DNA from: Levilactobacillus namurensis
GTDB taxonomy: Bacteria > Bacillota > Bacilli > Lactobacillales > Lactobacillaceae
Direction: 5' to 3'
Assembly: GCF_032197885.1 (NCBI RefSeq)
Contig: NZ_CP134159.1
Location: 1,364,001-1,428,000 of the forward strand
Length of the DNA: 64,000 bases
Shown: piece after piece, positions 4,626 through 33,172 of the stretch
Layout of the letters: every line of letters starts with the position of its first letter
Position numbering within the stretch: the stretch's first letter is position 1
The notes under the pieces: generated by a model
What the model saw: the letters and a program-made list of their open reading frames with translations, nothing else
Told to the model about the DNA's origin: nothing
Databases searched by the model: none
Made by a program: the position numbers and the translations under genes

Positions 4626-4635
4626 GAGTGTGCAC

Positions 4636-17440: not shown

Positions 17441-17468
17441 GACGCTATCAGAAACGAGGTGACGGCAC

Positions 17469-17537: not shown

Positions 17538-17556
17538 ACTTACAGGAGAATGACAC

Positions 17557-18738
17557 ATGAAAAACGTCCAAAAACAACGGCCATCCTTAGGCTTACTCAT
17601 CACCCTGGTTGGGTTTCCCCAAATCAGTGAATCCATTTTTACCCCCATCTTGCCCGCCCTCAGTCACGCACTACGCGTTAGTGCGGGGCGTAGTCAGCTA
17701 ACCTTAAGCGTCTACTTTGTGGCGTTCGCGCTGGGCGTGCTTTGCTGGGGACAATTCGCCGACAGTCAAGGGCGCCGCCCCGCCATGCTGGGGGGACTCA
17801 GCATTTACTTGATTGGCAACTTAGGCCTCCTAATCAGTCCTAACTTCTCGTGGCTTCTGGGGTGCCGGTTGATTCAAGCCTTCGGGGCGAGCGCTGGCTC
17901 CGTGGTCACCCAGACCATCATGCGCGAAAGTTTTACCGGCATAACCGGCGCGAAAGTCTTTGCTAACGTTAGCGCCGCTATGGCACTCTCACCCGCACTA
18001 GGGCCACTGATTGGTGGGGCGGTCCAGACCCATTTCGGGTACCACCACGTCTTTTCCGTACTGGTTATCTTGGCGATAGCCTGCCTCCTTTATGCGGGAG
18101 CCCGGTTACCGGAAACGCGTCCCACAACGGTCCAGGTTGCCTCGTGGCGTCAACAGGCCCAGGTCCTCAAGCGACTGGGGACCGATTCCACTGTATGGGT
18201 CTACGGCTTATTGATCAGTGGCATCAACGGCATTCTATTTAGTTACTACGCGGAAGCCCCGTTCATCTTCGAAAGCCATTTCGGCTTCTCCGCGTTAGCC
18301 TATGGTCGCTTAGGCCTATTACTGGCTGCGGCTAGTCTGCTGGGGGCCATCTTGGTTAATCGGTTGGTGACGTATTGGTCGTCCATGCAAATCGCACTGG
18401 GCGGGTTAGGGGTTAGTTGCCTCGCGTCACTAGGGTTGGTAGCCACGGCCCATTTCGCCCTGGTACCCGGAATGCTGAGCTGCATCTTCTTGGTCTTCCT
18501 GGGACTAAACGTCACGTTACCCACGGCCTTAAACCGGGCCTTGATTGGGTATGAATCGGTCATGGGCAGCGCCAGCGGTTGGTTTAGTCTGGCCTACTAT
18601 TTAGCTATCAGTGCGTTGACCTACTTGATGAGCTGGTTGCACAACGGCCAGATCACCACGCTCCCCATCTATATCTTAGGAGTCACGTTGGTCATGACCA
18701 GCGCCTATCTGGGACTGTATCGGCGAACTCGTCAGTAA
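17557..18738 (+). CDS. Bcr/CflA-type MFS drug efflux transporter
   Basis: A 393-residue, 12-helix proton antiporter. The 14-residue N-terminus leads into 'LGLLITLVGFPQISESIFTPILPAL'. The MFS motif A region is 'LCWGQFADSQGRRPAMLGG', and 'RLIQAFGASAGSVVTQTIMRE' is the motif C-like antiporter segment typical of Bcr/CflA proteins. The ribosome site ACAGGAG precedes the ATG. Multidrug export is the family role; the actual substrate is unknown. Transcribed from the promoter at 17412-17440 through the short leader ORF. Confidence 0.9.
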   Translation: MKNVQKQRPSLGLLITLVGFPQISESIFTPILPALSHALRVSAGRSQLTLSVYFVAFALGVLCWGQFADSQGRRPAMLGGLSIYLIGNLGLLISPNFSWLLGCRLIQAFGASAGSVVTQTIMRESFTGITGAKVFANVSAAMALSPALGPLIGGAVQTHFGYHHVFSVLVILAIACLLYAGARLPETRPTTVQVASWRQQAQVLKRLGTDSTVWVYGLLISGINGILFSYYAEAPFIFESHFGFSALAYGRLGLLLAAASLLGAILVNRLVTYWSSMQIALGGLGVSCLASLGLVATAHFALVPGMLSCIFLVFLGLNVTLPTALNRALIGYESVMGSASGWFSLAYYLAISALTYLMSWLHNGQITTLPIYILGVTLVMTSAYLGLYRRTRQ

Positions 18739-18752
18739 CTTAAACTCAATGG

Positions 18753-18784
18753 GGACCCCGCTCGTGATTGAGAGGGGTCCTCTT
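18753..18784 (+). terminator. Possible terminator after the MFS gene
   Basis: A seven-base stem GGACCCC / GGGGTCC followed by TCTTT; the tail is weak. Confidence 0.45.
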
Positions 18785-18810
18785 TGATGTGCGCTTAACT
18801 TGTAATGGGT

Positions 18811-19317
18811 CTAGTCCGGCTGATTTTGGGAGGTAGACTGGTCCGGTAAATCGATCAGTTGGTGCAGATCCGTAGCATTCTGACGGGCTCGTTGGTATTG
18901 CGCCTTGGTCTCAGGGTCGACCGCATGAGTCTGTGGCAGAAAGTGAACCGCTTCGGTGCCCGCCTCCACGGCCGTCTTGTAGTACCACTTTTTGTACCGT
19001 AGAAAATCAAGCTGCGCCTGCATGGCTTGAATCTTATCCGTCAGCACGGCCTCCTGGTGGTCGAGGTAGTCGTAACGTTCCTTTAGCGTGCCGTCACCCG
19101 CCATACAAAGCTGGATGAAACTGGCAATGTTTTTAACCGGAACCCCGCTTTTCTTCAGACAATCAATGACCTCAATAAAGTTTAAGTCGTTGGGCTTAAA
19201 GGTTCGTCGGCCTGCCTGGTTCCGTTCGACAAAGGGGAGTAGGCCCTGGCGATCGTAGAACCGTAGTGCTGAAGTACTAATGTTCATCATCTTGGCAACG
19301 TCTCCGATACTATACAT
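18811..19317 (-). CDS. MerR family transcriptional regulator
   Basis: At 168 residues it starts MYSIGDVAKMMNISTSALRFYDRQGLLPF, the MerR helix-turn-helix, followed by the wing 'RNQAGRRTFKPNDLNFIEVIDCLKKSGV' and a C-terminal dimerisation coiled coil (about 75-125). No metal-binding cysteine cluster is visible, so it probably senses an organic or redox signal. The ATG shares its A with the stop of the acetyltransferase gene (TAATG), so both are made together. It is the natural candidate to bind the two MerR-type sites at 20133-20155 and 20171-20193. Confidence 0.9.
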   Translation of the reverse strand: MYSIGDVAKMMNISTSALRFYDRQGLLPFVERNQAGRRTFKPNDLNFIEVIDCLKKSGVPVKNIASFIQLCMAGDGTLKERYDYLDHQEAVLTDKIQAMQAQLDFLRYKKWYYKTAVEAGTEAVHFLPQTHAVDPETKAQYQRARQNATDLHQLIDLPDQSTSQNQPD

Positions 19318-19892
19318 TAGGCTTCCTCCTGATCAGGACTAAGGGGCCGAATGATTCTTGCGGGCACGCCCCCAACTAAAACGTTATCGGGGATGTCCTT
19401 AGTCACAACGGCTCCCGAGGCCACCACCACGTTATTGCCGATGGTCACTCCAGGATTGATCGTGACTTTACCGCCGATCCACACGTCATTGCCAATGGTG
19501 ACCGGGTGGCCTTGGGCCAGATTCTGGCGCCGACCAGCAACGCTGAGCGCGTGGTTGACCGTATAGATATCTACGTTAGGACCAATCATCACGTTGCGCC
19601 CAATTCGCACTGGCGCAATATCGAGAATGGTCAGGTTGTAATTACTAAGGAAATTTTCCCCAACGTGGATGTTGCGACCATTATCGCAATTGAAGGTCGC
19701 TTGGACCGATACGTTTTGCCCAGTTGACCCCAGGATTTCCTTAATTTTGGCCGTCTGACGTGCGGGCTCCGTTGCTGGAATCGCATTAAATTCTTGGCAA
19801 AGTTGGGCTGCACGCGCCTTACGTTTCGCCACACCGGCGTCAAGAAAATGATACCATTCGCCCCGGTCTAGTTTCTCGAGTTCTGTTGTCAT
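19317..19892 (-). CDS. Maltose/galactoside-type O-acetyltransferase (left-handed beta-helix)
   Basis: A 191-residue member of the Maa/LacA family. The N-terminal helical part (about 1-60) begins with 'EKLDRGEWYHFLDAG'. Hexapeptide repeats follow, with 'NCDNGRNIHVGENFLSNYN', the catalytic His in 'IYTVNHALSV', and the C-terminal 'IGNDVWIGGKVTINPGVTIG' and 'VASGAVVTKDIPDNVLVGGVPARII'. It transfers acetyl from acetyl-CoA to a sugar hydroxyl; the acceptor is unknown. First gene of the operon with the MerR regulator. The transcript from the MerR-type promoter would have a leader of about 225 bases. Confidence 0.92.
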   Translation of the reverse strand: MTTELEKLDRGEWYHFLDAGVAKRKARAAQLCQEFNAIPATEPARQTAKIKEILGSTGQNVSVQATFNCDNGRNIHVGENFLSNYNLTILDIAPVRIGRNVMIGPNVDIYTVNHALSVAGRRQNLAQGHPVTIGNDVWIGGKVTINPGVTIGNNVVVASGAVVTKDIPDNVLVGGVPARIIRPLSPDQEEA

Positions 19893-20124
19893 ATTGTTTA
19901 GGTCCTTTCTTTGACTTTACGTTAGCTTTAACTCGACCGCAGAAAATTGTCCCATAGCTAAGGGATTGGGCTGTCCATAGCGAGCGAGTTGCTCAACCTC
20001 TCGTGTTCTGACCACTAAGCAAACGTCTACTTCCCGTACTGGCAACCGCGCCGAATCCCACGGAAGTTTCAGTACTTAGTCAAGTTTTAGTCACCGCTAA
20101 ATACCTTTCGTTGAACACAAGTCT

Positions 20125-20201
20125 ATTTTAGGACTTGAACATAGGTTTAAGTCAAGTCTCAAATTGATGGTTGACTTAAACCAATGTTCAAGTTGTACGT
20201 T
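20125..20201. promoter_or_regulatory. Back-to-back MerR-type promoters with mirrored operators
   Basis: Two 23-bp copies (20133-20155 and 20171-20193) are inverted repeats of each other with one central mismatch, separated by 15 bp. Each copy is itself a near-palindrome, ACTT(G/A)AAC-N4-GTTTAAGT. Rightward: TTGACT (20171-20176), 19-bp spacer, TACGTT (20196-20201), serving the SDR gene. Leftward: TTGACT (20150-20155), 19-bp spacer, TAAAAT (20125-20130), serving the acetyltransferase-merR operon. The 19-bp spacing with the dyad between -35 and -10 is the hallmark of MerR-activated promoters. The rest of 19893-20124 holds no gene. Confidence 0.85.
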
Positions 20202-20222
20202 TGAAGAAAGGAGTGAATGCTA

Positions 20223-20951
20223 ATGACTCATCAAGATTCGAAAGTTGCTTTGATTACGGGAGCTAGTTCTGGCTTTGGCTGGGGAACGGCGCTTGCGATG
20301 GCCCAAGCCGGATATCGCATCGTGGTGACCGCCCGGCGGGAAGCCCGGCTTCAGCAACTCGTCGCCGAATGTCAAAAGCTAGGGACTTCAGCGGCCTACT
20401 ATGTGGGGGATGCCCGTAAGACCGCGACGGCGCAGGGGGCCGTCGCCTTTACTTTAGAACAATTTGGTCGTTTAGATATTTTAGTCAACAATGCGGGAAT
20501 CGGACGGGTCCAAAAACTCGTGGATACGCCCATGACGGATTTTGACCTGGTTATGGATACCAACGTCCGAAGTGCCTTTGCCTTTACTAAGTTTGCGGTA
20601 CCCCAGATGATCAAGCAACATTCGGGGCAACTGATTCTGGTGTCCTCGGTCACGGGGATCAAGGGCCACGCTGAAGAAGCGGCGTACACCTGCAGCAAGT
20701 TTGCCTTACGTGGGTTGGGCCAAGCGCTAGACCACGAACTCCTGCCGCAGGGGATTCGAACCTGTGTCTTCTGCCCCCATGCCGGCGCAACTGAATTCGA
20801 GGTGGGCCATGGTCGGACGTCCGCCGAAGTTGCCCAATCGGGGTTCTTAACTCCTGAAGACGTGGGGGCGGCCCTGGTCAGCGTCTGTGAACAACCCAAA
20901 CACTCTCGCATTGTGGAACTCCGGTTAGCTTCTAATAACGTTCCTTATTAA
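20223..20951 (+). CDS. Short-chain dehydrogenase/reductase (SDR)
   Basis: A 242-residue classical SDR: the cofactor loop is 'ITGASSGFGWGTALA' near the start, with NNAGIG at about 86-91. The catalytic Ser lies in 'ILVSSVTGIKGH' and Y-x-x-x-K in 'AAYTCSKFAL'. The Arg-rich 'VVTARREARL' suggests NADP preference. Two ATGs are close together; the second (20223) sits nine bases after AAAGGAG and is chosen. It is driven by the rightward MerR-type promoter, so it is probably induced together with the divergent acetyltransferase. Substrate unknown. Confidence 0.9.
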   Translation: MTHQDSKVALITGASSGFGWGTALAMAQAGYRIVVTARREARLQQLVAECQKLGTSAAYYVGDARKTATAQGAVAFTLEQFGRLDILVNNAGIGRVQKLVDTPMTDFDLVMDTNVRSAFAFTKFAVPQMIKQHSGQLILVSSVTGIKGHAEEAAYTCSKFALRGLGQALDHELLPQGIRTCVFCPHAGATEFEVGHGRTSAEVAQSGFLTPEDVGAALVSVCEQPKHSRIVELRLASNNVPY

Positions 20952-21046
20952 CTCGCGATGCGGGAAGCGCTTGAGCACGGGTTACCTTCGGGCCTAACAC
21001 GGGTTACCATCTCTGTTATACTGAGGCGTATAAGGAAGGTGAGCTT

Positions 21047-21508
21047 ATGGGATACGTCACAAACTTACGAAAGACGGTGGGGTCGCAACCGCTGGTGGTC
21101 ATTGGGGCCGCTGCGGTGGTCTTACGGCAAAATCAATTGCTCCTGGTCGACCGGCGTGACAACCACCTCTGGGGACTACCGGCAGGGTCTAAGGAACTCA
21201 ATGAATCATTGGAAACCACCGCGATACGCGAACTCCATGAGGAAACGGGACTGATTGGTCAACGACCAGAACTGTTAACGATTGTGAGCGGACCGGGATG
21301 CCAGTACCAATACCCGAACGGCGACCAAATCGACTCGTCAACGGCTGTTTATCGCTTGCAGGCGACGGGGACTCCGGGTGGCAGTAACGAGACCCGTACG
21401 AGTCGCTTCTTTGACCTCACCGCGTTACCCGCACAAATGACGCCCATTACGCAAGAAATTCTGCGCCGCCTAACACGCAATCATCAGCTAGTAGGGGATG
21501 TCCATTAA
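21047..21508 (+). CDS. Nudix hydrolase
   Basis: A 153-residue protein with a full Nudix box: G at the start of 'GSKELNESLETTAIREL', then HEETGL (G-x5-E-x7-R-E-x2-E-E-x-G-L). The preceding 'VVLRQNQLLLVDRRDNHLWGLPAG' is the usual N-terminal beta-strand and substrate-loop region. It hydrolyses a nucleoside diphosphate linked to another moiety; the specificity cannot be read. AAGGTGAGC is the ribosome site. It has a -10-like TATACT at 21017-21022 without a good -35, and a strong terminator follows. Confidence 0.9.
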   Translation: MGYVTNLRKTVGSQPLVVIGAAAVVLRQNQLLLVDRRDNHLWGLPAGSKELNESLETTAIRELHEETGLIGQRPELLTIVSGPGCQYQYPNGDQIDSSTAVYRLQATGTPGGSNETRTSRFFDLTALPAQMTPITQEILRRLTRNHQLVGDVH

Positions 21509-21538
21509 CTAAATTAGAAACTTACCACGACCTCTTTA

Positions 21539-21597
21539 AACGAACCAGTCCCCAGTAAAGGCTTGAAACACACTTTACCGGGGACTGGTTCGTTTTT
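21539..21597 (+). terminator. Strong terminator between the Nudix gene and the Jet operon
   Basis: A very long stem, AACGAACCAGTCCCC-GTAAAG / CTTTAC-GGGGACTGGTTCGTT, followed by TTTT, with A's on the left. Confidence 0.93.
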
Positions 21598-21722
21598 GCC
21601 ATTTTTTTCTAGAATTTTAGGCCGTTCTGGCAAAAAGAGGCAGTTTTTACGGAACTAACCTAGAAGCTGCCGTCATTATAAAATATACTAGATGTATTCT
21701 AATCCAAGAAAGGTCACAGACG

Positions 21723-23228
21723 ATGAACTCCAATACTAAGCTAACCCAATTGCTGATGGCAATGAACCTCGGCCGTAGTCGTGATCACCCCTTAGCTGGG
21801 TGGAATGTTCTTAAAATTTTATACGGCGATCATGGGAACACCGGCGCAACGCCCACCTTCAACTACCTTAGTCAGCAATACAATACGAATTATCTGGATA
21901 CTGCGACCAACGAGAGTCCCATATCCGACGTGATTCTCAAGAACGTCTTAGCCGTTTTAAGTGATTCGGCCCACCTCATCGAAGTCTCACCGCGTAAGAT
22001 ACGGATGCGGATGCAAAGTGGGGCGTTCCACCTACAGCAGGCGCCCGTTTACCGAATCACACCGAGTGGCATTGAATATTTGACCTTAATGCCCAAGGTA
22101 CTGGATGCTGAAAGCACGGTGACGGCTAACATCGCCCGCATCGATGAATACTGTACCTTGGTCCAAAAATTGGGACGCCCAGATTTAGATAGCACTGATA
22201 CCCAACTGTATAACGACTTCAATAACATGCTAACGGCCTATAGTGATGTGATGAAGGGGATGCATAAGCTCGACCAAGACCTAGACGAGTTAGCCAACGA
22301 CCTAGCCTTCAATCACGGGAGTGGGGCCGCTGATCAGCTACAGCAGATGTTAAAGACCAAAGCGATTCCCGCTTTTCAACGACTGACGGATCAAGGGCCG
22401 TTAGTCCAAGAACTAGCGAATTCAACGACCTTTTTTGAACAGGTTGCTCGCAGCCGGCAGGGGCGCGATAGTCTGGAAGTGGAACGGGCCATCGACGATC
22501 AAGCGGCTTTGACCGTCCAGTTCCAACAAGACCGGGCGTACGTTCAGGCCCACTTACAGACGCTATCAGCCAGCTTTGAACCGACGGCCAGCGCAATTGA
22601 TAGCAGTTATGATTCAATCTACATGGTCCTAGAGACCATTTTAGCCGCCATTCAATTGCTTGGCCGAGAATACGACCATATTCAGAGCCAAACCGTGGAT
22701 ATTCAGCAACTGACCGCCCAACTAGACGACCTGTTGGCACATTACCAGACGCTGACGTTGCCCCGTCCGATTCCACACCATCTGGCGCAAGACCGGCTGG
22801 TATCGGATCCCAGCGATCTTTTGAACGCGACCACCATGGGGCCAGTCAAGTACCTGGCGAGTACGCACCAACGATCGGTCGCTACTGCAGCAGATAACCC
22901 GCTCGTAGCGGAAGATGACCACCCGGATGAGCGACGTCAGGCAGGACTCTTAGAATTCCAGCACCTGGTCATGCACGACGCCTTGCACGGAACGGTCGAC
23001 CACGACCTTGAACTAACCACCCGGGTGGCCCGCGATGAGATTGCGCGGCTGTATAGTGCCACCGGATACGACCATTATCAGAGTTTCGCGCCGTTTGGCC
23101 GCCCCGTTGAGGCCGTAACGGCATTGCCGAAGACCGGTCCGATCTGGTTACATTGTGCCGATGAACGGTTCAGTGTCCAACTCCCCAGTGGTTTTCAGGT
23201 CACTTTCCAAAGTCAGGAGGAAGCGTAA
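21723..23228 (+). CDS. jetA: JetA-like (kleisin/MksF-like) subunit of a Wadjet-type SMC system
   Basis: A 501-residue, acidic, helix-rich protein at the first position of a four-gene SMC-like operon. The N-terminal ~120 residues look like a winged-helix block ('HLIEVSPRKIRMRMQSGAFHLQQAPVYRITPSGIEYL'); the middle (about 130-370) is long alpha-helix and coiled coil. By position, size and architecture it matches JetA, the kleisin-like bridge of Wadjet complexes. No single catalytic motif is expected. GAAAGG precedes the ATG and the stop overlaps the next start by one base (TAATG). The naming rests on context more than on this sequence alone. Confidence 0.72.
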   Translation: MNSNTKLTQLLMAMNLGRSRDHPLAGWNVLKILYGDHGNTGATPTFNYLSQQYNTNYLDTATNESPISDVILKNVLAVLSDSAHLIEVSPRKIRMRMQSGAFHLQQAPVYRITPSGIEYLTLMPKVLDAESTVTANIARIDEYCTLVQKLGRPDLDSTDTQLYNDFNNMLTAYSDVMKGMHKLDQDLDELANDLAFNHGSGAADQLQQMLKTKAIPAFQRLTDQGPLVQELANSTTFFEQVARSRQGRDSLEVERAIDDQAALTVQFQQDRAYVQAHLQTLSASFEPTASAIDSSYDSIYMVLETILAAIQLLGREYDHIQSQTVDIQQLTAQLDDLLAHYQTLTLPRPIPHHLAQDRLVSDPSDLLNATTMGPVKYLASTHQRSVATAADNPLVAEDDHPDERRQAGLLEFQHLVMHDALHGTVDHDLELTTRVARDEIARLYSATGYDHYQSFAPFGRPVEAVTALPKTGPIWLHCADERFSVQLPSGFQVTFQSQEEA

Positions 23229-24274
23229 TGGTGACAAAATTACACGCGAGCGAACGCTTCGTCATCAATCAACTAATTGACCGCGGAGTCTTCACCAGTA
23301 CCCTGACGCCAAGAACCCCACAAGCCACGGTGGAGGCCGTCATGGCCCTAAAACGAACGGTGACGCAACAACGAATCAACGGTTACCTGAAAAATTTGGT
23401 AGGAACGATTCCGGAAAATTATCAAGAAAATCTGGTCTGGTTACTGGGACCACTAAAGGAAGATGCCGAAACGGTCCATGTCTTACTAGCCACGCTAAAA
23501 GCGGTGATCAACATCCCCGAATTACAGGGAAACCGGGCGGACCGCGCCGTGTTGACCCAGACCGTCGTCCGCCAGGTGCATAGTGAGGTGACTACGCTCG
23601 ACGAACGTGAAATTCACCGGCTCATCACGGCTCTGTTTGTCGATCGGTTTAAATTATTCATCCCCGACGTACCCGAATATACTCCCGTCGATCAAGACCA
23701 AGAAATCACCGAGTACTGGGACATCGACCCCGAGATCAATCGCTTCGCCCAGACGGTGGTCACGCATTTTAGGCAAAAGCAGGCCATGCCGCCGCTGAGC
23801 GCTATCCAACGACTGAATCGCGCCCTGCTGATCAAGCGCTCGCTGAACCGTGCCACCACATCTCCCCAATTATGGCAAGTGCTCCAAGACAACCGCCAAG
23901 CAATCGCCCAGCAGTGGGCCGAGCTGGACCGGTTTGATTTAGAAATTGGGGATGACTACGCCTTACTTTTGGACCACACACGTACGCCTAGTCGGGCTAA
24001 ACCAACCGTCGTGGCCATCGCATTGGCCCGTCAGATTGGCGTTGGCATTCCCTTGGAGAAATTGAATCAGAAGATCAAACAAGTCGCGGCGGTTCTGCTC
24101 CCCAACTATCCCATTAACTTAACCCTGGTCAAACAAGCCCTGACCGACTTAGGACTCGTCACGATTCAATCCGACTTTGTGACCCCGACGCCCTTAGCGA
24201 CCCGCTTCATGGCTAAAACCCAATCAGAGGAGGAAACTGAATATGACTCAGTCAACGACCCTAAGACCCGTTAG
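23228..24274 (+). CDS. jetB: JetB-like (KITE/MksE-like) subunit
   Basis: A 348-residue protein in the second position. The C-terminal ~150 residues carry winged-helix-like segments ('SRAKPTVVAIALARQIGVGIPLEKLNQ' and 'YPINLTLVKQALTDLGLVTIQSDFVTPTPLATRF'), fitting the tandem-WH KITE subunit that sits on the kleisin in MukBEF, MksBEF and Wadjet. Its 3' end overlaps the start of the SMC gene by 32 bases, indicating tight co-translation. By itself it is not distinctive; the assignment relies on the operon. Confidence 0.7.
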   Translation: MVTKLHASERFVINQLIDRGVFTSTLTPRTPQATVEAVMALKRTVTQQRINGYLKNLVGTIPENYQENLVWLLGPLKEDAETVHVLLATLKAVINIPELQGNRADRAVLTQTVVRQVHSEVTTLDEREIHRLITALFVDRFKLFIPDVPEYTPVDQDQEITEYWDIDPEINRFAQTVVTHFRQKQAMPPLSAIQRLNRALLIKRSLNRATTSPQLWQVLQDNRQAIAQQWAELDRFDLEIGDDYALLLDHTRTPSRAKPTVVAIALARQIGVGIPLEKLNQKIKQVAAVLLPNYPINLTLVKQALTDLGLVTIQSDFVTPTPLATRFMAKTQSEEETEYDSVNDPKTR

Positions 24275-27200
24275 TTTTCACCTACGTAATTTCAATAAAT
24301 ATTTACACTTGGATCTGGAGGCTTCAGCTAAAGGAAATTTAACTCTGGTGGGGGAAAATGCCGCCGGGAAGACCACCTTAGCCAACTGCTTCTTTCCTAT
24401 GCTAGTGGATGGTTCCATCGCCACACCTTCGTTCAATCCGGCAAAGGGGACGGACCGTCTCGACAAAACGGGAAGTGCCCGCAATAGCTCCCGGGAGTCG
24501 CGGAACTTCGATAGCATGTTACTGGGGTGGGGCCCAAGCGCGATGCTGGTACGTACTGGTTATACCTATATGGTCCTCCAATCCGCAACGCGTCAAGTCA
24601 TCATGGGATTGGGGGCTCACCGGGCAGTGGGGGAACACCGCAAACCGACTTGGTGGTTTATCGCCATTAACCCCGATCTCCAAACGCCCATGACTTTAAA
24701 CACCACGGATGAGCAAGGCAACAGCCTGGAAAAAGATGCCTTCATCGCGGCCAACGCTGCCTGGGGCGACCAACTACACGTCTTCACGCAGGTCGAGGGG
24801 TACCGTAGCTATGCCGCGGAACACGTTTATGGGTTCACCCGCCTGGAGAGTCTGAATCAGTTAGCAACGGCTTATCGGTTATTAGCTTCCCCCATCTTGA
24901 CTGCCGGTAACGCCCGCTTTACGCCCATCCAGGCGGCGCTAAAGAACGCCCAGGAGGGGATTGACCGGCACGTGATTGAGAACGTCGCCGCGACCCAACG
25001 CCAACTCAACCAAACCAATGCGTTGCACGAACGGATCGTCCGGGGACAAGACCGGTTAAAACGCTTAAAAGCCCAAATTTTCTGGCGAAATCTGAATCGG
25101 TTTCAGGAAATCATCTTAAAACCATACAGCCAGGCCGTTACGCAATTGACCCACCTTAAGCAACAGCGCGAAGAGATTCAACGACAGTTGCAAGCTGCCC
25201 AACAACAGTTGCACCACCTCGAGCCCTTAATGGCACAAGCAGATGCCGACGTTAGCCACTACGTTCAGGCTAAGGCCGTTCAAGATGATCTCAAGGCACG
25301 GCGGAAAAGCCTGCAAAATGAGTTCAACCTGCTTACGGAACGGTTGCAGCACTATCGCCGACTAACGGACCGATTGGCCCAACAGCAGGCGTCCCTCCAG
25401 ACGTTCAAGGACCAGCAGGCGACGTTGACGCAACAGCAAGCCACGATTAGGCAGACCCAACTAGAGCCTTTACGCGCTAAATTAGCCGCCAAAACGGCGG
25501 GGATGCCAACACTATTAGATGTCATGACGGCGACGGATGACCAGCAACTAAGCCAAGACCTCAAACATTACCTCCGGGATGTGGCACGGCTTGTAACACA
25601 GTACCAAGACATCCAGGAAAATCAGCAACACCTTAGCGAAGACGTTCAAATCGTGGGGGACATGCAAACGAGTCTTGATCAGCGAATCGATCACCGGGCT
25701 CAGGGTCCCCTGGTGAGTCGCTTCCGCGAAGGCCTCCACGCGGACAACCGGGAGGTCCACGCAGCCGGGGCGGCGAAGATGAATGCCCGCTTCGATGAGT
25801 TAGAACGGCAACGAGTCGCCTTATTGCGGGACCATCCGGACTTAAAAGCTTATCTGGCGGATATTCACCTAATCGACGCGTTACGGGCGAATTCGCATGC
25901 CCTGGCCGATTGCTTAGACCAGTTGGCAACGTGCCACCGCCAACTAGAAGCCCTAGCGATTCATCTAAAGAACGCGACTGATCAGGTTCACCAAACCAAA
26001 TCGACCTTAGCCACCGATTTCCGTGATTTCGTCATGGCAACGGTTCAAGCCGACCTGCAACACCTTCAACAGCAATTGACTGAATTAGTTTTAGATCCCC
26101 AAATTGATCAAAAGTTGGCCACCGCCCGGGCAACCTTCCAGAAGTATCGGGCAGAAGAACAACACTTAAGCCAGCAACTGGCGACTTATCAAGCCAACCT
26201 CACGACCAATCACCAACAGTTAACGACCCATACACAAGCCTTGGATCAGTTAACCGCGAATGGTCAGGCCGGTCTAGCCGATTTAAGACCTTACGCGTCA
26301 GACGCCGAACCACTGGCCGACCTCACAGCCGCCTTAGCCTTTGTCAAGAGTCATGGGAGTGAGGTGCGCAGTCATAGCTATAGTGATTTGACCAATCAAA
26401 TTGGTCATTTGATTCATCGCAACGACGAGAACGGGGTGGACCGCTATGCCCTCGACAGTCTATTTGAAGAACGGGGCCACGATGCTATTGCCAGCGCCAT
26501 GCGGCAACAACATGCCGTGGAACGGGGAAACTTAGGGTTCCGGGTGGTCGCGTTCGACCTTAACCAGGCTCAAGAGTTCCTAGCAACTGACGAACAAGCT
26601 GTCGCCAATGCCTTAGCCCAAACGGTCTCCGGTAATGACGTGGCCCAACGCGCTTACTTGGGGGCGGCCATTCACCAGATTGCGGATCAATATCGCCTTA
26701 TCGATGGTTATAACGACATCTTGGCGCGGGGCGTTCGTGGCGACCAAGAAATTCGGCTCAAGATTTCGTTAGCCCCCGTCAACGTGGACCAAGCCGTCAT
26801 TGATGAAGCTTGCGATGCCCACCTGACGGAACGGCCAGCACTGACCGCAGAAGTCGAAAAGCGGTTGACCAAGCTAGCCAGTGACGTGGCGATTGCGAAT
26901 GATGATGACCAGTTCATGGATGAAGCTTACCAGTTGCTGGATATTCGGCAGTGGTCCGAGTTCAAGATTTGGATTCATCGTCGTCAGAGTCCCGTGGATG
27001 CATTCGAAGAAGTCGACGATAAGTTCGTTCAATCTGGCGGATTCGGGGCGGAAAAAGCTCAGGCGATGGTGTTGCCATTGCTACTGGTTCCCAAGATGAT
27101 CCTGCAACGGTCTCGCCAAGCCGACGTGCCGCACCTGGTCATGTTTGACGAATTTGCGGACAAATTGGATCCCGAAACAGCTAAATCGTTTGCGCAGACC

Positions 27201-27383
27201 ATCGACCACTTTGGCTTCAACTTTATCGCGACCATGCCTAGTGGCGCCCAGAATAAGGTTTTAGCCGACGGCGTTGAGAACATCGCGTATGACGTCATTG
27301 CACCGACTACGCAAGAAGACGGGCGCTTCCATAAAAACATCGTTCGCCCGGCCTTAGTTTGGCAGGCGAGAACCCATGACTGA
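24243..27383 (+). CDS. jetC: JetC-like SMC ATPase (MksB-like) of a Wadjet-type system
   Basis: A 1046-residue SMC-like ATPase. The N-terminal head has 'GNLTLVGENAAGKTTLANCF', Walker A at about residues 37-45. Long Gln/Leu-rich coiled coils run from about 250 to 440 and 540 to 700, separated by a less helical, hinge-like part. The C-terminal head has an ABC signature-like 'QSGGFGAEKAQA' (about 930) and Walker B 'HLVMFDEFADKLD' with D969-E970. It is the loop-extruding motor of Wadjet: in studied systems it pulls circular plasmid DNA until JetD cuts it. A tight operon with overlaps on both sides. Confidence 0.85.
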   Translation: MTQSTTLRPVSFHLRNFNKYLHLDLEASAKGNLTLVGENAAGKTTLANCFFPMLVDGSIATPSFNPAKGTDRLDKTGSARNSSRESRNFDSMLLGWGPSAMLVRTGYTYMVLQSATRQVIMGLGAHRAVGEHRKPTWWFIAINPDLQTPMTLNTTDEQGNSLEKDAFIAANAAWGDQLHVFTQVEGYRSYAAEHVYGFTRLESLNQLATAYRLLASPILTAGNARFTPIQAALKNAQEGIDRHVIENVAATQRQLNQTNALHERIVRGQDRLKRLKAQIFWRNLNRFQEIILKPYSQAVTQLTHLKQQREEIQRQLQAAQQQLHHLEPLMAQADADVSHYVQAKAVQDDLKARRKSLQNEFNLLTERLQHYRRLTDRLAQQQASLQTFKDQQATLTQQQATIRQTQLEPLRAKLAAKTAGMPTLLDVMTATDDQQLSQDLKHYLRDVARLVTQYQDIQENQQHLSEDVQIVGDMQTSLDQRIDHRAQGPLVSRFREGLHADNREVHAAGAAKMNARFDELERQRVALLRDHPDLKAYLADIHLIDALRANSHALADCLDQLATCHRQLEALAIHLKNATDQVHQTKSTLATDFRDFVMATVQADLQHLQQQLTELVLDPQIDQKLATARATFQKYRAEEQHLSQQLATYQANLTTNHQQLTTHTQALDQLTANGQAGLADLRPYASDAEPLADLTAALAFVKSHGSEVRSHSYSDLTNQIGHLIHRNDENGVDRYALDSLFEERGHDAIASAMRQQHAVERGNLGFRVVAFDLNQAQEFLATDEQAVANALAQTVSGNDVAQRAYLGAAIHQIADQYRLIDGYNDILARGVRGDQEIRLKISLAPVNVDQAVIDEACDAHLTERPALTAEVEKRLTKLASDVAIANDDDQFMDEAYQLLDIRQWSEFKIWIHRRQSPVDAFEEVDDKFVQSGGFGAEKAQAMVLPLLLVPKMILQRSRQADVPHLVMFDEFADKLDPETAKSFAQTIDHFGFNFIATMPSGAQNKVLADGVENIAYDVIAPTTQEDGRFHKNIVRPALVWQARTHD

Positions 27384-28203
27384 CTTTCTAGCGGCCTACC
27401 AGCACGCCACACACCGCCCAGCCCCGCTGGATGCCAATCGGTTAGCACCGTTGTTTGCTCAAATCGCGGCGGACCACTTGTTACCGCCGCGTGGGCAACA
27501 AGCCGTCAATGCTGGCTTTACAGCGCACACTCTCAGCGATGCACACGAGAATCCGCCCATTTATCACTACTACCAGTGGGCGCTGGCCAACTGTTTAGCC
27601 GAGCATCCGGTTCACGAACTTAGCGCACAACTTGTGGGGAACTCATTTGTTTGTGTTAATCTCTTCCAGACGGATCTCCCACAACCACTAACACTTAACC
27701 CCTGGCAGGTCTCGGCCATGGCCGATTTCCCTTTAATGACCAATTGCGCGGTTATGATCGAAAATAATGGGGTCTTTGCGTGGCTCCATCACCGGCATCC
27801 GAACTGGCCACTAATCGACCAAGCCGGTAATGACTTTAACAGTACCGCCAACCGCTTATTACAGCGGTTAGTTCATCGCGGGGTGGCTGTGACGTATCTG
27901 GGCGACCTAGATAGTCCCGGAATTCAAATTGCGGAGCGGGTCCAACGGCTCATCCCCCAAGTCCCGGCTGACGAACTCTTCGCGTTACAACTGCCGCAAC
28001 GGGTCTTCGCATGGCTGGTTCAATATGGCAAGCCGGATACCAAGCGAACTAAGCAGCAGACTGTCCAAACGCCGCTCCTACAGGAAGCCCTGACTTCCAT
28101 TCACACGCTCGGTAAGTTCGTGGAACAAGAACAGTTGATAGCCGCTTACGAAGACTTGATTCCTGCTTGGTTGGCCCAACACGCACCTAAACTTGAGTCC
28201 TAA
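27376..28203 (+). CDS. jetD: JetD-like Toprim nuclease (DUF2399-like)
   Basis: A 275-residue last gene of the operon, starting eight bases inside jetC. The C-terminal half contains a Toprim-like core: 'TNCAVMIENNGVFAWL' with E129 and 'VAVTYLGDLDSPGIQIAERV' with D177 and D179, the E...D-x-D set used by topoisomerase VI-type nucleases. The G-D-x-D-x-x-G-x-x-I-A arrangement is that of DUF2399 proteins. In Wadjet systems JetD cleaves the extruded plasmid. It is shorter than many JetD proteins, so the N-terminal DNA-binding part may be reduced. A terminator follows the stop directly. Confidence 0.8.
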   Translation: MTDFLAAYQHATHRPAPLDANRLAPLFAQIAADHLLPPRGQQAVNAGFTAHTLSDAHENPPIYHYYQWALANCLAEHPVHELSAQLVGNSFVCVNLFQTDLPQPLTLNPWQVSAMADFPLMTNCAVMIENNGVFAWLHHRHPNWPLIDQAGNDFNSTANRLLQRLVHRGVAVTYLGDLDSPGIQIAERVQRLIPQVPADELFALQLPQRVFAWLVQYGKPDTKRTKQQTVQTPLLQEALTSIHTLGKFVEQEQLIAAYEDLIPAWLAQHAPKLES

Positions 28204-28243
28204 AAGTAGCGTTCCTCATTTAAATTGAGGGACGCTACTTTTA
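28202..28243. terminator. Terminator of the Jet operon
   Basis: The stem AAAAGTAGCGT-CCTCA / TGAGG-ACGCTACTTTT has A's on the left and T's on the right. Confidence 0.9.
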
Positions 28244-28433
28244 GAGAATCCGATTACTTGTTCTCCCAATCGATTAGGTCGCGAGACTGCCCTGGTTTAT
28301 TGTAAACTGAGCATCCCCGCTACGCCGAACTTGGTCAAACCGCGATGACCTGGAAAAACTAGTAATGAGTTATCATGGAAGAAAAGCTCATCGCAAATAG
28401 GCCAAAATCAGATACTGTTTAAGGGGAGATAAC

Positions 28434-29285
28434 ATGCGATTTAAAAAGGGGATTTGGTTCAGTCTCATCATGGGACTATTGATATTAAGTGGGTGTAGCC
28501 GGGCTAGCACTCAACCGGCCAAAGATGTCCACCAGAGCTATGGCGCCAGCTACGTTCCCACACTTTTCTTTCACGGGTACGGTAGCAGTGCCAATGCCGA
28601 AATGCATATGATCAACGCTGCTAAGTCGGCCGGAGTAACCCGTACCGTTCTGCGGGCTACCGTAGCCAAAGACGGCCACGTCACTTGGCGCGGCCAGTTT
28701 AAGCCGGGAGATCATCATCCCCTGGTCGCCGTTCAATTCACGGACAACCGCAACAGCGATTACCCCCAGGATGCTACCTGGGCCAAACACGTGATTACTG
28801 GCCTGCAGAAGTCCTACCACGTGACGAAATTTAACGTCGTCGGCCATTCGATGGGGAACATGGCCATCGTCTACTACCTACTGGCGAACGGTCAAAATCG
28901 GCATTTACCCCAACTCCAAAAAGAGATCGACATTGCCGGCCACTTCAACGGCATTCTGGGGGTCAACGACGAACCTAACCGGATGACGTTATCGGCGACG
29001 GGGAAACCCAACAAAATGGACCATAACTATCAACAATTGCTGGCACTTCGCCAACGATTCCCGCGGCAGGTTCAAGTACTCAACATCTTCGGGGATTTAA
29101 ATAATGGCACCCATTCTGATGGACGCGTCAGCAACGCCTCGTCTCAGTCGCTTAAGTACCTGGTTAAGCAGCGTGCGGCGACCTACCAAGAGCACCGAAT
29201 CGTGGGCGCCAAGGCCCAACATAGCAAGCTCCACGATAACGCGCAGGTCGATCGCCTGTTGATTCAATTTCTCTGGGACCGTTAA
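28434..29285 (+). CDS. DUF915 alpha/beta-hydrolase lipoprotein
   Basis: A 283-residue extracytoplasmic hydrolase common in lactobacilli. The lipobox is LILSGC (Cys about 21), predicting a lipid-anchored protein. The fold markers are 'YVPTLFFHGYGSSANAEMHMI' with the oxyanion region and the nucleophile elbow GHSMGN (Ser in 'FNVVGHSMGNMAIVYYL'). 'IFGDLNNGTHSDGRVSNAS' gives the acidic residue and 'AQHSKLHDN' the catalytic His. Substrate unknown, perhaps an envelope ester. AAGGGGAG precedes the ATG. Stands alone between jetD and tex. Confidence 0.88.
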   Translation: MRFKKGIWFSLIMGLLILSGCSRASTQPAKDVHQSYGASYVPTLFFHGYGSSANAEMHMINAAKSAGVTRTVLRATVAKDGHVTWRGQFKPGDHHPLVAVQFTDNRNSDYPQDATWAKHVITGLQKSYHVTKFNVVGHSMGNMAIVYYLLANGQNRHLPQLQKEIDIAGHFNGILGVNDEPNRMTLSATGKPNKMDHNYQQLLALRQRFPRQVQVLNIFGDLNNGTHSDGRVSNASSQSLKYLVKQRAATYQEHRIVGAKAQHSKLHDNAQVDRLLIQFLWDR

Positions 29286-29358
29286 ACGTCAAAGCCAAGG
29301 GGGATGTTGCGATTAACGGTCGTATCCAGCCAGCTAGACGCCCTAACCTAAAACATCA

Positions 29359-29367
29359 TGGTATACT
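29359..29367 (+). promoter_or_regulatory. Extended -10 promoter of tex
   Basis: TG-G-TATACT (TG at 29359-29360, TATACT at 29362-29367), about 55 bases before the start. No good -35, as is common with an extended -10. Confidence 0.6.
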
Positions 29368-29422
29368 TTTAGATGTCGTATCACCACAAGAATTAACCAA
29401 CATTTCAACCATGGAGGACTGT

Positions 29423-31621
29423 ATGGCAACCACACAAGCAGAAAATCGCCTGGTCAATTTGGCCGGGCCAGTTCACCAACAACTCGGTCAATACCGGGTC
29501 CAACAGATTCAAGCCGTTTTGACGCTACTCGATGAGGGCAACACGGTTCCGTTTATCGCGCGTTACCGAAAAGAACGGACCGGAACCTTGGACGAAGTGG
29601 CCATTCGCGACATCGAAGATGAGGCCCAGCGCTTGATGAAGCTCAATCAACGGCGCCAAGACGTCTTAAAGTTGATTCAAGAGCAGGGGAAGTTAACGGC
29701 CCAGCTCAAGCAACGGCTCACCCAAGTGACGACCTTACAACAAGTCGAAGACCTTTATCTGCCGTATAAGCAAAAACGACGGACTAAGGCAACCATTGCC
29801 CGGGAAGCGGGACTGACGCCACTGGCTAAGTGGCTGTTAACGTACCCGGCTAGTGGACTAGACACCAAAGCCACGACGTTCATCGCGCCAGACAAGGGAT
29901 TACCCGACCTGACTGCCGTTTGGGATGGGGTCCACGAGATTTTAGCCGAAACGTTCAGTGAACAGGTGGCCTTTCGGGAATGGATCCGGCACTACACCCG
30001 GCAACATGGTGAGTTGACCAGCAAACGCAAACGTGGCGCCCAGACGGCTGACGAGCAACAGGTCTATGCCACGTATTACGACTTCAAGCAAGCCCTCAAA
30101 CAGGTGCCACCATACCGAATTCTGGCTATGAACCGGGGCGAACGCGAAAAGGTCTTATCGGTCGGCATCGCCGTTGATCCTACATCCATCTTGCAGTACG
30201 GTCATTTTCGGTTAGTCGGTCAGCACCAAGGACCCGCCGTGGCGAAAATCACCGCTGCATTCGCCGACGCTTACAAACGCTTCTTGGGTCCCGCCATCGA
30301 ACGGGAACTACGCCGGCAACTTTCCGAACAGGCCGACGACCACGCCATTCAAGTCTTTGGGAACAACCTCTACCACCTCTTAATGCAGGCCCCACTAAAG
30401 GGTAAAGTCGTCATGGGATTCGATCCCGCTTACCGAACGGGGTGCAAATTAGCCATTATGGATGCCAACGGCCGGTTTTTAGCCAAGCAGGTCATCTATC
30501 CCCATAAGCCGGCTAGTCAAAAGCAACGCGCCGCGGCCGGTCCCGCCTTCAAACAGCTCCTAGAAGACTACCACGTCCAAATGATTGCGATCGGTAACGG
30601 GACCGCTAGCCGTGAATCTGAAGAATTCGTCAGTGAAATTCTAAAGACGCTGAATCACCCCGTCTACTACGTCATTGTTAACGAAGCGGGGGCTTCCGTT
30701 TATTCCGCAAGTGAGAACGCGCGGGCAGAATTTGCGAACCTCCACGTGGAAGAACGGTCAGCGGTTAGTATTGGGCGGCGCCTGCAGGACCCGCTGGCGG
30801 AATTGATCAAAGTCGACCCGAAAGCCATCGGCGTCGGCCAATACCAACACGACGTTCCCGAAAAGGCCCTCGACGCCCAATTGGACCGCGTCGTCGAAAC
30901 GGCGGTCAACCAAGTCAGGGTCAACGTCAACACGGCCAGTCCCGAGTTGCTCACCCACATCTCAGGACTGACTGCGACCACTGCGAAAAACATCGTGACG
31001 TACCGTAACCAAAACGGCGCTTTTGCGGACCGTCAAGCACTCAAAGCCGTCCCACGCTTGGGTCCCAAGGCCTACCAACAAGCAGTTGGCTTCCTTCGGA
31101 TCTTAACGGGACGCAATCCCCTAGACAATACGGACATCCATCCGGAAAGCTACCCCGTCACCCAACGCCTGTTAGCGGACCTACAAGCGACTCCCGCTGA
31201 TATTGGGACGCCGACCTTGCGCCACTACTTACAGCAGTTGAACCGGCAACAGTGGGCCCAACGCTTGGGTATCGGTGAGGCGACCCTCGCAGATATTTTG
31301 GACGGCCTGAGTAAGCCAGGACGGGATCTGCGGGATAGTATGCCGGCACCGCTGTTGCGCCAAGACGTCTTGACGATGGCCGACCTGAAACCGGGGATGG
31401 AACTCCAGGGAACCGTTCGGAACGTGGTCGACTTCGGGGCGTTCGTGGATATTGGGGTTAAACAGGATGGTTTGGTGCACATCTCACAACTGGCCGATCA
31501 CTTTGTGAGTGACCCCAGCACCGTGGTGACCATTGGGGACATCGTAACTGTTTGGGTCCTTAGCGTGGATGAACAGCGTCAACGAATCCAGCTGACCATG
31601 CGCCAAGCGCAGCAGGACTAG
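29423..31621 (+). CDS. tex: Tex family RNA/nucleic-acid-binding protein
   Basis: A 732-residue S1-domain protein with the full Tex layout. The N-terminal helical domain includes 'DEGNTVPFIARYRKERTGTLDEV'. The YqgF/RNase-H-like domain is 'GKVVMGFDPAYRTGCKLAIMD' (about 325-350). The helix-hairpin-helix region is 'VNVNTASPELLTHISGLTATTAKNIV', and the C-terminal S1 domain is 'LQGTVRNVVDFGAFVDIGVKQDGLVHIS'. Tex affects transcription, toxin expression or stress survival in various bacteria. An upstream ATG at 29411 is in frame, but its own GGAGG lies between the two and serves 29423. Confidence 0.95.
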   Translation: MATTQAENRLVNLAGPVHQQLGQYRVQQIQAVLTLLDEGNTVPFIARYRKERTGTLDEVAIRDIEDEAQRLMKLNQRRQDVLKLIQEQGKLTAQLKQRLTQVTTLQQVEDLYLPYKQKRRTKATIAREAGLTPLAKWLLTYPASGLDTKATTFIAPDKGLPDLTAVWDGVHEILAETFSEQVAFREWIRHYTRQHGELTSKRKRGAQTADEQQVYATYYDFKQALKQVPPYRILAMNRGEREKVLSVGIAVDPTSILQYGHFRLVGQHQGPAVAKITAAFADAYKRFLGPAIERELRRQLSEQADDHAIQVFGNNLYHLLMQAPLKGKVVMGFDPAYRTGCKLAIMDANGRFLAKQVIYPHKPASQKQRAAAGPAFKQLLEDYHVQMIAIGNGTASRESEEFVSEILKTLNHPVYYVIVNEAGASVYSASENARAEFANLHVEERSAVSIGRRLQDPLAELIKVDPKAIGVGQYQHDVPEKALDAQLDRVVETAVNQVRVNVNTASPELLTHISGLTATTAKNIVTYRNQNGAFADRQALKAVPRLGPKAYQQAVGFLRILTGRNPLDNTDIHPESYPVTQRLLADLQATPADIGTPTLRHYLQQLNRQQWAQRLGIGEATLADILDGLSKPGRDLRDSMPAPLLRQDVLTMADLKPGMELQGTVRNVVDFGAFVDIGVKQDGLVHISQLADHFVSDPSTVVTIGDIVTVWVLSVDEQRQRIQLTMRQAQQD

Positions 31622-31664
31622 GCAGGCGTGGCTGATCATCGTCACCGGTTACCAGGACTTCCCA

Positions 31665-31692
31665 TTGCAAGGATTCTTTAATCTGTTATGAT
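31665..31692 (+). promoter_or_regulatory. Promoter of the 42-residue basic protein gene
   Basis: TTGCAA (31665-31670), 16-bp spacer, TATGAT (31687-31692). Confidence 0.65.
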
Positions 31693-31774
31693 GGGAAGCA
31701 CCCTGTAAATTTAGCGTCTTCGATTGATGTTTACAGAATCACTCTCGATAACTCCATAAGGCGGTGACAATTAC

Positions 31775-31903
31775 ATGACTCAAAAGGAAAAAATGATGGC
31801 CCTCATCGAAAAGAAGAAACAAAACGGCCACAACCAGCAAAAGACCGTTGCAAAAAACGATCGTAAGAACATGCGCAAGGGACCAAAAATCTTCAATAAG
31901 TAA
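31775..31903 (+). CDS. Small basic protein, 42 residues
   Basis: MTQKEKMMALIEKKKQNGHN continues to a basic C-terminus 'RKNMRKGPKIFNK'. About a third of the residues are Lys or Arg, with no hydrophobic segment, so it is probably cytosolic and nucleic-acid- or ribosome-associated (inference). It has its own promoter, an AAGGCGGTGA ribosome site eight bases before the ATG, and a terminator. That signal set makes it a real gene although I do not recognise the family. Confidence 0.75.
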   Translation: MTQKEKMMALIEKKKQNGHNQQKTVAKNDRKNMRKGPKIFNK

Positions 31904-31979
31904 GCCGTCCTAAGCCCTGATCAGACGGGGGACCCCGGGCTACTCGAAAAAAGGGGTCGCCAATTCAATAATTCGTCAC

Positions 31980-32021
31980 TAAAAATCGCCCGGTTCTCTG
32001 TGAAGAGAAGCGAGCGATTTT
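31980..32021. terminator. Bidirectional terminator between the small basic gene and xerS
   Basis: AAAAATCGC / GCGATTTTT plus an inner CG/CG pair, with a 20-base loop. A run and T run on either side. Confidence 0.8.
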
Positions 32022-32107
32022 TGATCATGCTTGAAATTTTAAGATGCCTTTACTTTACGATTTTTAAATTCGCTTAGACGCTTGGGCACTATAAGTGACG
32101 ATTCACA

Positions 32108-33172
32108 TCAAAGTTTCTTCAACCCGTTACGCTGTTCTTCGTCAATCATGTGCGTGTATAGCCCCGTGGCGGTGGTTGAGTTTTGTCCTAACTGGGTGGC
32201 TACCAACTGCTCGTTTTTCGTCGCTAGGTACAGCTTAGACGCTAACGTATGCCGTAACTTATGCGGGGTGATTCGTACCTTGAATGCCGCTGAGTATTTG
32301 GCAACCATTTTTTCCATGGTGTTCGCCTGCATGCGTGAGGCTTGTCCCCGGTAAATGGTTAAGAAGAGGGCCCGGTCATCCTTGGCGGCGTGGTAGAGCG
32401 CTTGGCGCTGCGTGACGTACGCTTGGATATAGGGGATGGTCCAAGGTGCGATGGGCACTGTATCGCGTTGGCCACCTTTTCGAACGACCCCAATCGTCTG
32501 CGTTTTTAGGTTTAGGTGGCGAAGGTCGGCATTCGCCGCTTCAGAGACCCGTAGACCGCTTCCCAGTAATAGGGCGTTGATGGCCAGGTCCCGGAGCTTA
32601 TCACGCTTAAAGTAGCGCCGTTGGGCGGGTGTCAGCCGTTTCTCGTATTTGTGGTCAATGAAGTCTAAGTAGTCGTGATCCGTATTTCCCAGCATCAACT
32701 TAGTCTTTAGGTTGGCTGCTCGGGTCGCGTAGGTCTCATTGGTGCGAACCAGTGCAATCTTGTGCATCACGTTACGGTCAAAGTAGGCTTCGCCGTGCTC
32801 GTCTTCCGTATCCTCAGTGAGGTACTTAAAAAGCGACGAGAGGGCGTTTAACGAGCGGTTAATGGTCGGGTGGGACCGACTACCGGGCGCACCGGTTAGC
32901 TTAGTCTGGTTTAACAGCGCCGATTTGTATAACTCGACCGTTTCTTTCTTTAAATGGGCCAATAGCTCTAGCGGAATATCGGCCGGTCGACTAACGGATG
33001 CGATACCTTCGCTAATCAGCCAGTTAAAGAAGCGGCGAAACTCCGTCAGATATTGATACAGCGTAGCGGGGGATAGGGGGATCGTCGCCTTGGCCTGGTA
33101 ATATTCCTGAACGAACCAGGGGGCACTGGCGAGTTCCTCGTCAATGAGCTTTAAATAGTGTTGCTTCTCCAT
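32108..33172 (-). CDS. xerS: XerS-type tyrosine recombinase
   Basis: A 354-residue recombinase that in streptococci and lactococci works alone on difSL to resolve chromosome dimers. The N-terminal SAM-like DNA-binding domain (about 1-140) begins with 'YLKLIDEELASAPWFVQEYY', typical of XerS. The catalytic residues are visible: Arg I in 'LGSGLRVSEAAN', H-x-x-R in 'TPHKLRHTLASKLY', and the nucleophile Tyr in 'TTATGLYTHMIDEEQRNGL'. The usual His/Trp of the 'LGHSS' motif is Gln here (LGQNS). The genome also has XerC (54.6 kb), so XerS may act on a separate site. GGAGG precedes the ATG; the promoter carries a LexA-like box. Confidence 0.88.
   Translation of the reverse strand: MEKQHYLKLIDEELASAPWFVQEYYQAKATIPLSPATLYQYLTEFRRFFNWLISEGIASVSRPADIPLELLAHLKKETVELYKSALLNQTKLTGAPGSRSHPTINRSLNALSSLFKYLTEDTEDEHGEAYFDRNVMHKIALVRTNETYATRAANLKTKLMLGNTDHDYLDFIDHKYEKRLTPAQRRYFKRDKLRDLAINALLLGSGLRVSEAANADLRHLNLKTQTIGVVRKGGQRDTVPIAPWTIPYIQAYVTQRQALYHAAKDDRALFLTIYRGQASRMQANTMEKMVAKYSAAFKVRITPHKLRHTLASKLYLATKNEQLVATQLGQNSTTATGLYTHMIDEEQRNGLKKL

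Follow-up and report, generated by a model that had tools for sequence, protein, structure and literature searches.

Wadjet (JetABCD) systems restrict plasmids and are encoded in the order kleisin-like subunit, KITE, SMC and Toprim nuclease. In type I, JetD consists of a CAP and a Toprim part, and the CAP domains are thought to block the cleft, as stated in a passage of PMC10586767. A part of PMC12647877 ties the hinge channel to obstacle bypass, reports the hinge of a type II Wadjet as channel-less and describes a tendency of the channel-less Wadjet-II and -III towards longer arms, with a few type III exceptions. According to a section of PMC12287153, a native Wadjet limits conjugation in Clostridium cellulovorans. 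The DNA analysed here (the window) is a stretch of 64,000 nucleotides from Levilactobacillus namurensis, lying within a 2.67 Mb contig of a 2.78 Mb genome in 5 contigs. It carries four jet genes, and comparison of their sequences indicated that the locus is probably a plasmid-restriction system of the Wadjet kind, belonging to a compact, fourth lineage.

Comparison with the described Wadjet types

The genes were located as follows, in coordinates of the window.

21723..23228, + strand: jetA, 501 aa, kleisin-like subunit; C-terminal match to type II JetA, no convincing family model
23228..24274, + strand: jetB, 348 aa, KITE/MukE-like subunit
24243..27383, + strand: jetC, 1046 aa, predicted SMC ATPase
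27376..28203, + strand: jetD, 275 aa, predicted Toprim nuclease without the DUF3322/DUF3323 N-terminal domain

All four open reading frames (ORFs) are intact, share the + strand and adjoin or overlap, and their order is that of JetABCD. The result is in agreement with the initial annotation, which had described four tightly packed frames of 501, 348, 1046 and 275 residues at 21723-28203. A chance cluster of ORFs was ruled out by recurrence in many species and purifying selection in relatives. A pseudogene was set aside as all four frames are intact, residue 934 of JetC remaining a reservation.

The lineage was compared with canonical type II using reference profiles of 37 rows per gene, alongside off-diagonal and reversed profiles as controls. 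The type II set was built without L211, L214 and L216, and of the 38 loci kept, L206 was dropped from the JetA and JetB profiles and L102 from those of JetC and JetD; L302 was dropped from type I JetA and JetB for its differing gene order. The lineage profiles were made without the near-copies L113, L129 and L148 and without rows outside the length ranges (broken or cut genes), and the 44 compact JetC rows leave out broken-frame JetC. The median lengths for the lineage and type II were 501 and 503 residues for JetA, 337 and 393 for JetB, 1040.5 and 1391 for JetC, and 269 and 438 for JetD. The NCBIfam type II models scored far below their cut-offs, namely 45.2 against 462.85 bits for JetC (TIGR02680) and 42.5 against 196 bits for JetD (TIGR02679). 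A search with the type-specific hidden Markov models of PADLOC, which had been proposed earlier as a check, matched JetC to JetC2 (3.6e-23), JetD to JetD2 (1.7e-13), JetD3 (4.3e-6) and JetD1 (5.8e-5), and JetB to JetB2 at an E value of 0.011, with no match for JetA.

Two quick trees were drawn with type I as outgroup. In the JetD tree of 73 rows (23 of the 48 compact rows, 37 type II, 12 type I and 1 type III), the compact group was supported at 99.7, type II as one side of a branch at 87.7 and type I at 86. The JetC-head tree, also of 73 rows with 23 of the 44 compact ones, gave 100, 92.6 and 85 for the same three groups. The type III row stood apart from the compact group in both trees, as a single row on a long branch. 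The mean path between compact and type II rows, in 900 random pairs, was 7.65 for JetC and 5.8 for JetD, compared with 8.59 and 6.12 between types I and II; the distances of the compact lineage and of type I from type II appear about equal. The compact group is best read, short of proof, as a fourth Wadjet lineage outside types I and II. The initial annotation had suspected a divergent type, and this suspicion was borne out.

The lineage shares with type I (MksBEFG, EptABCD) the four-part logic, the JetD core and a comparable length of JetC (12 type I loci have 1094-1227 aa). It differs in JetB, which measures 202-231 aa in 11 type I loci against the compact median of 337, and in that type I has DUF3322 (one JetD scanned) and a hinge related by homology to the type II hinge (8.8e-8), neither being detectable in the compact lineage. 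The likeness to type III is confined to the weak JetD3 match, while JetC of 1494 aa and JetD of 369 aa in the single type III locus read (L314, typed by size and order) set it apart. MksBEF and MukBEF have the same kleisin-KITE-SMC core and are without the Toprim nuclease, unlike the compact lineage, in which each of the 49 named loci continues with a jetD. No description of a fourth or compact Wadjet type was found in the open-licence PubMed Central (PMC) literature, subscription papers lying outside that search, and the lineage looks new.

The four subunits

The nuclease subunit was identified from its core. JetD exceeded the Pfam cut-off for DUF2399 (44.3 bits, cut-off 23.4) and barely that for JetD_C (24.3 bits, cut-off 22), and its lineage profile matched type II at 2.8e-16 and the type I core at 9.8e-9 (hhalign). 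The following acidic residues are invariant in 73 of 73 aligned JetD of all types, and also in 48 of 48 compact rows.

27760..27762, + strand: JetD Toprim E129
27904..27912, + strand: JetD Toprim D177-x-D179
28129..28131, + strand: JetD E252, fourth conserved acidic residue

The Toprim-like E129/D177/D179 pattern and the compact JetD with a DUF2399-like core, both noted in the initial annotation, therefore held, and E252, which it had not listed, is equally invariant. By these matches JetD is a predicted Toprim nuclease. Neither DUF3322 nor DUF3323 was detected by Pfam in JetD of the window, nor in four other JetD of the lineage (two compact, two divergent). Among the comparison proteins, the two type II JetD scanned consisted of DUF3323 and DUF2399 and the one type I JetD scanned of DUF3322 and JetD_C. 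A profile of the type I N-terminus matched its type II counterpart at 2.3e-5, whereas the compact N-terminus gave no match to either (0.28-0.30). Judging from their position, DUF3322 and DUF3323 would correspond to the CAP domain. Three further Bacillota stretches (L310, L311 and L312) encode JetD_C-like proteins of ~350 aa. The ~9 kb read showed no ORF of SMC size on the strand in question, and these proteins may possibly be stand-alone relatives of JetD.

The JetC lineage profile matched that of type II at 1.4e-34 (hhalign), a reversed coiled-coil control reaching 3.3e-5. The nearest solved JetC structures are 9qe0 and 9qe1, both of type II, the former of which we take to be the N. vireti type II structure (Structure 2025). 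JetC is, on these profile matches and the motifs below, a predicted SMC-type ABC ATPase.

24351..24374, + strand: JetC Walker A, residues 37-44; G37, G42, K43 and T44 invariant in 44/44 compact rows
27147..27152, + strand: JetC Walker B, D969-E970; invariant in 44/44 compact rows
25623..25832, + strand: JetC apex, residues ~461-530; conserved short stretch in place of the ~140-160-residue hinge of types I and II

Both motifs agree with those read earlier (Walker A at ~37-45, Walker B D969-E970). The earlier remark that JetC is shorter than some was right as to length and incomplete, since the 12 type I JetC are also of 1094-1227 aa. What appears unusual in JetC is the combination of a short arm with an undetectable hinge. 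The central segments of type I and type II JetC match each other at the 8.8e-8 given above, and at 1.8e-8 and 9.1e-7 against full lengths. The same hinge profiles found nothing convincing in compact JetC, the best match being 0.021 over 17 columns. The composition of the arm region was measured as the 60-residue stretch richest in V, I, F, Y, W, T, C, P and G. The medians were 0.33 (0.28-0.43) in 44 compact, 0.47 (0.37-0.57) in 37 type II and 0.45 (0.42-0.48) in 12 type I JetC, the ranges overlapping slightly. Only the ~70 conserved residues 461-530 mark the compact apex, and none of the 44 compact JetC has a CxxC hook in its arm region. Compared with the channel-less Wadjets, compact JetC lacks both the long arms and a detectable hinge.

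The assignment of JetB as a KITE subunit is well supported by profile comparisons. The scan of 45 lineage rows reached JetB2 at up to 4.5e-6 (6/45) and JetB1, which is MukE-like, at up to 3.5e-5 (8/45); 10 of the 14 families matched were JetB, and the other four were unrelated, at 5.4e-4 or worse. The lineage profile matched type II JetB at 7.2e-4 over 304 collinear columns, with controls at 0.16 or worse, and the comparison with type I was not significant (0.1). Profile searches of the Protein Data Bank (PDB) with JetB and JetD gave no match.

JetA is likely a kleisin, on the basis of its C-terminus and its gene position.

22836..23225, + strand: JetA C-terminal region, putative kleisin C-terminal domain; homology to type II JetA

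The last 130 residues of JetA matched type II JetA with an E value of 9.8e-4 in profile comparison, with controls at 0.15 or worse; type II against type I gave 4.3e-4, a similar strength. The N-terminal segments matched type II no better than decoys did, and the comparison with type I JetA was not significant (0.44). In HMMER searches in both directions between the lineage and type II, JetA ranked first, at just 0.0045 and 0.048. Among families, 43 lineage JetA rows matched eight, with one member each, the best being ZorA1 (3.6e-4), with JetA3 at 0.023. Of the type II models TIGR02677-02680, the one for JetA (TIGR02677) had no match in the own genome. DUF2397 and DUF2398 were absent from JetA and JetB of the window by Pfam, while one type II control locus scored 315.8 and 235.5 bits. 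Adenylosuccinate lyase, of which two chains (0.095 and 0.1) were the sole PDB profile matches of JetA, was rejected. The initial annotation had named the lack of any hit of the first two genes to kleisin or KITE families as evidence against a Wadjet; such hits were found, clearly for the JetB rows and modestly for the JetA C-terminus.

Residue 934 and the state of the window's copy

One residue of JetC sets the copy in the window apart from its relatives.

27042..27044, + strand: JetC residue 934, Phe instead of the ABC signature serine; window only

Two profile alignments placed position 934 at the signature serine, as did a separate alignment of the C-terminal head. It is serine in 43/43 other compact, 37/37 type II and 12/12 type I JetC (92/92). 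The SGGFGAEK stretch that had been called signature-like earlier is a real signature, in which the F replaces the serine found in every other JetC examined. Phe934 is the sole departure of this JetC from columns unanimous in the other 42 rows (median per row 0, maximum 5); the corresponding departures number 0 in JetA, 0 in JetD and 1 in JetB.

The serine expected at this position is presumably the equivalent of S1090 of Bacillus subtilis Smc. The S1090R substitution of that protein is described in a part of PMC5526789 as a head-engagement mutant. Because the signature serine is replaced by phenylalanine, ATP-dependent head engagement is expected to be hindered, and the copy in the window is probably inactive or weakened. 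The genome contains four further plasmid-like contigs of 40.7, 30.0, 25.6 and 5.4 kb. The parts of them that were queried gave hits to hundreds of plasmid records from lactobacilli, with no hit covering 80% of the query. This size range is included in the sizes of restricted plasmids given in a passage of PMC10586767. These putative plasmids are consistent with an impaired copy without proving it. The first 20 kb of the 40.7 kb contig (L317) resembles lactobacillus phage-plasmids, with matches in 373 plasmid records that cover portal, terminase and S-layer protein genes.

A fully active copy, with Phe934 tolerated or a sequencing error, seems rather unlikely. In its favour, JetC is not decayed apart from this residue, and other rows hold up to five departures; the serine of 92 other JetC from three groups and the presence of the four plasmid-like contigs speak against it. 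The earlier description of a complete Wadjet-type system was upheld for gene content, and it is doubtful for the activity of the window's copy, in which the signature serine is replaced.

Occurrence, alternative readings and meaning

Of 301 Lactobacillaceae genomes sampled from 40 genera, 41 gave a match to JetC, spread over 13 genera. In 32 of these genomes, the own genome included, the match was near whole length at 40-100% identity, and likewise in G221 at 28%; the other eight had a split, partial or weak JetC, one of them (G275) being canonical type II by size. The nearest named relatives of JetC are those of Levilactobacillus spicheri, L. acidifarinae and L. zymae (71-72%). A pattern scan with one genome per species found 49 named loci, all lactobacilli by title, with patterns specific to the compact lineage, so that distant kin could be missed. 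The four-gene order recurs across many species, and all four genes exceeded the length limits in 41 of the 49 loci; of the rest, L135 was cut by a contig end and seven had a short or missing jetA, jetB or jetC (L153 just short in jetA). The JetD profile matched 20 of 295 genomes of the order and 22 of 398 of the phylum. Near-whole-profile matches occurred in Lactobacillaceae only, in four of the five there, the fifth (G049) starting at position 41. The remaining 15 (order) and 21 (phylum) matches began at about position 103, in frames of 351-454 and 425-514 residues. As far as searched, the compact lineage appears confined to Lactobacillaceae. Plasmid records and viral contigs gave no match to JetC, nor did phage records to JetD.

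In five pairs of relatives, each of the four genes had a ratio of nonsynonymous to synonymous substitution rates (dN/dS) within 0.01-0.16, and the operon is under purifying selection in these relatives. Two genomes, G221 and G295, hold a second, divergent compact branch (L065, L066) whose JetC is 25-28% identical to that of the window and whose JetD of ~270 aa is without DUF3322 and DUF3323; the jetC of L066 is broken. In G049 (L216 5114-8160), jetA is followed by an ORF of 512 aa that fuses a part of jetB (residues 9-290) to a part of jetD (26-269); no match to jetC lies in the stretch that was read. A 355-aa transposase-like ORF, IS30-like by eye, replaces jetA and the start of jetB in G053 (L039 11616-12683).

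The surroundings of the locus in the window delimit a cassette.

21607..28333, + strand: whole cassette, 6.7 kb; no counterpart at the same site in sister genome G954 (L291)
28200..28244, + strand: inverted repeat I2, likely cassette terminator; 22-nt arms, 91% complementary, 1 nt spacer, at the jetD end

The cassette contains the four jet genes only. By DNA alignment, G954 has ~9 bases in its place, and the flanks (17241-21533, 21534-21606 and 28334-32922) align to L291 at 92.9-94.5%. The cassette varies by presence and absence, through gain in the window genome or loss in G954. The terminator scan did not list I2, and the promoter scan gave no + strand promoter upstream of jetA. The neighbouring genes vary widely between the loci of relatives; no conserved fifth gene was found among four neighbours per side, the two commonest families occurring in 10 of 47 loci each. 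The hydrolase gene adjoining the cassette (28434-29285) matches the own genome nine times, and all 35 genomes of the genus contain relatives of it. Beside the NUDIX gene, L291 carries ~476 bases (reverse strand, 4360-4835) that have no counterpart next to the cassette in the window and code, by eye, for a YbaK-like protein.

Three other readings of the locus were weighed. It may be a fast-evolving branch of type II with the same mechanism and with shrunken arms, hinge and JetD, which is unlikely. For JetB, JetC and JetD, the best match in PADLOC is a type II model, the gene order is the same, JetA is of similar length, and the N-terminal head of JetC scores 152.2 against type II, above the 128.6 of type II against type I. 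Against it, the compact group lies outside type II in both trees, the TIGR02680 and TIGR02679 scores are low, and hinge and DUF3323 are undetectable; plain type II membership was set aside on scores, domains and trees. It is improbable that the genes encode a chromosome-organising condensin of the MksBEF kind with JetD as an accessory. Two genomes of one genus, G009 (L047 7318-10404) and G106 (L048 7576-10689), keep jetABC with no match to the window's JetD in either whole genome, and between them jetABC has a dN/dS of 0.08-0.13, with synonymous sites nearly saturated. This is only suggestive of functional jetABC without nuclease, in a condensin-like use; a passage of PMC10586767 states that Pseudomonas aeruginosa MksBEF likely arose through loss of JetD. 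The saturation in this pair counts against such a reading, as do the constant presence of jetD in the named loci, and the patchy occurrence and the empty site in the sister genome, which are unlike a core condensin. A defence system aimed at phage or linear DNA and not at small circles is slightly more improbable still. The missing hinge and N-terminal domain could alter substrate choice, and activity on small circles is itself only predicted here, but no sequence evidence for another target was found and the parts match circle-cutting families.

The reading as a compact Wadjet lineage with an impaired copy in the window has several points against it. The forks that set types I and II apart stand at 85-93 and were not starred, and the JetC tree carried a long-branch warning (the type III row fell with type I, and L065 with the rest). 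The missing hinge and JetD N-terminal domain were read from undetected homology and composition, and a highly diverged part could escape. The whole-length comparison of JetA with type II gave an E value of 0.043 over 394 collinear columns, and a reversed decoy reached 0.027. When the window is compared with L112, its nearest relative, saturation of synonymous sites leaves JetB as the only one of the four genes in which dN/dS could be measured (0.077). As regards the copy itself, Phe934 could be a sequence error, its effect was deduced from that of another substitution, S1090R, in the Smc of B. subtilis, and the plasmid-like contigs of the host could reflect evasion and not inactivity.

For the compact Wadjet reading, complex formation, extrusion, circle specificity and cleavage would follow by analogy with the described systems. 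By homology, and on the mechanism described in PMC10586767, JetA, JetB and JetC would assemble into a DNA-reeling complex driven by ATP. Once a small circle is fully extruded, the stalled motor would pass the DNA to the Toprim nuclease JetD, which would cut it. Since the type I CAP domains, thought to block the Toprim cleft, have no detectable counterpart, JetD would have to be restrained differently from type I, most simply through JetA and JetB or through the short N-terminus of JetD.

Tentatively, the lineage may represent a fourth type made of a short-armed, hinge-less SMC motor and a bare Toprim nuclease without CAP, perhaps the smallest cutter of DNA circles. The copy in the window might then be a natural dead-motor mutant, and the branch without JetD a second birth of a condensin-like complex. 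If this is true, circle sensing and controlled cutting would require neither a hinge nor a CAP domain, and the lineage would go against the trend to longer arms reported for channel-less Wadjets. Circle sensing and nuclease restraint of Wadjet are still being worked out, and the compact lineage bears directly on both. In lactobacilli, the system is a candidate barrier to plasmid work that would be scored low by type-specific models.

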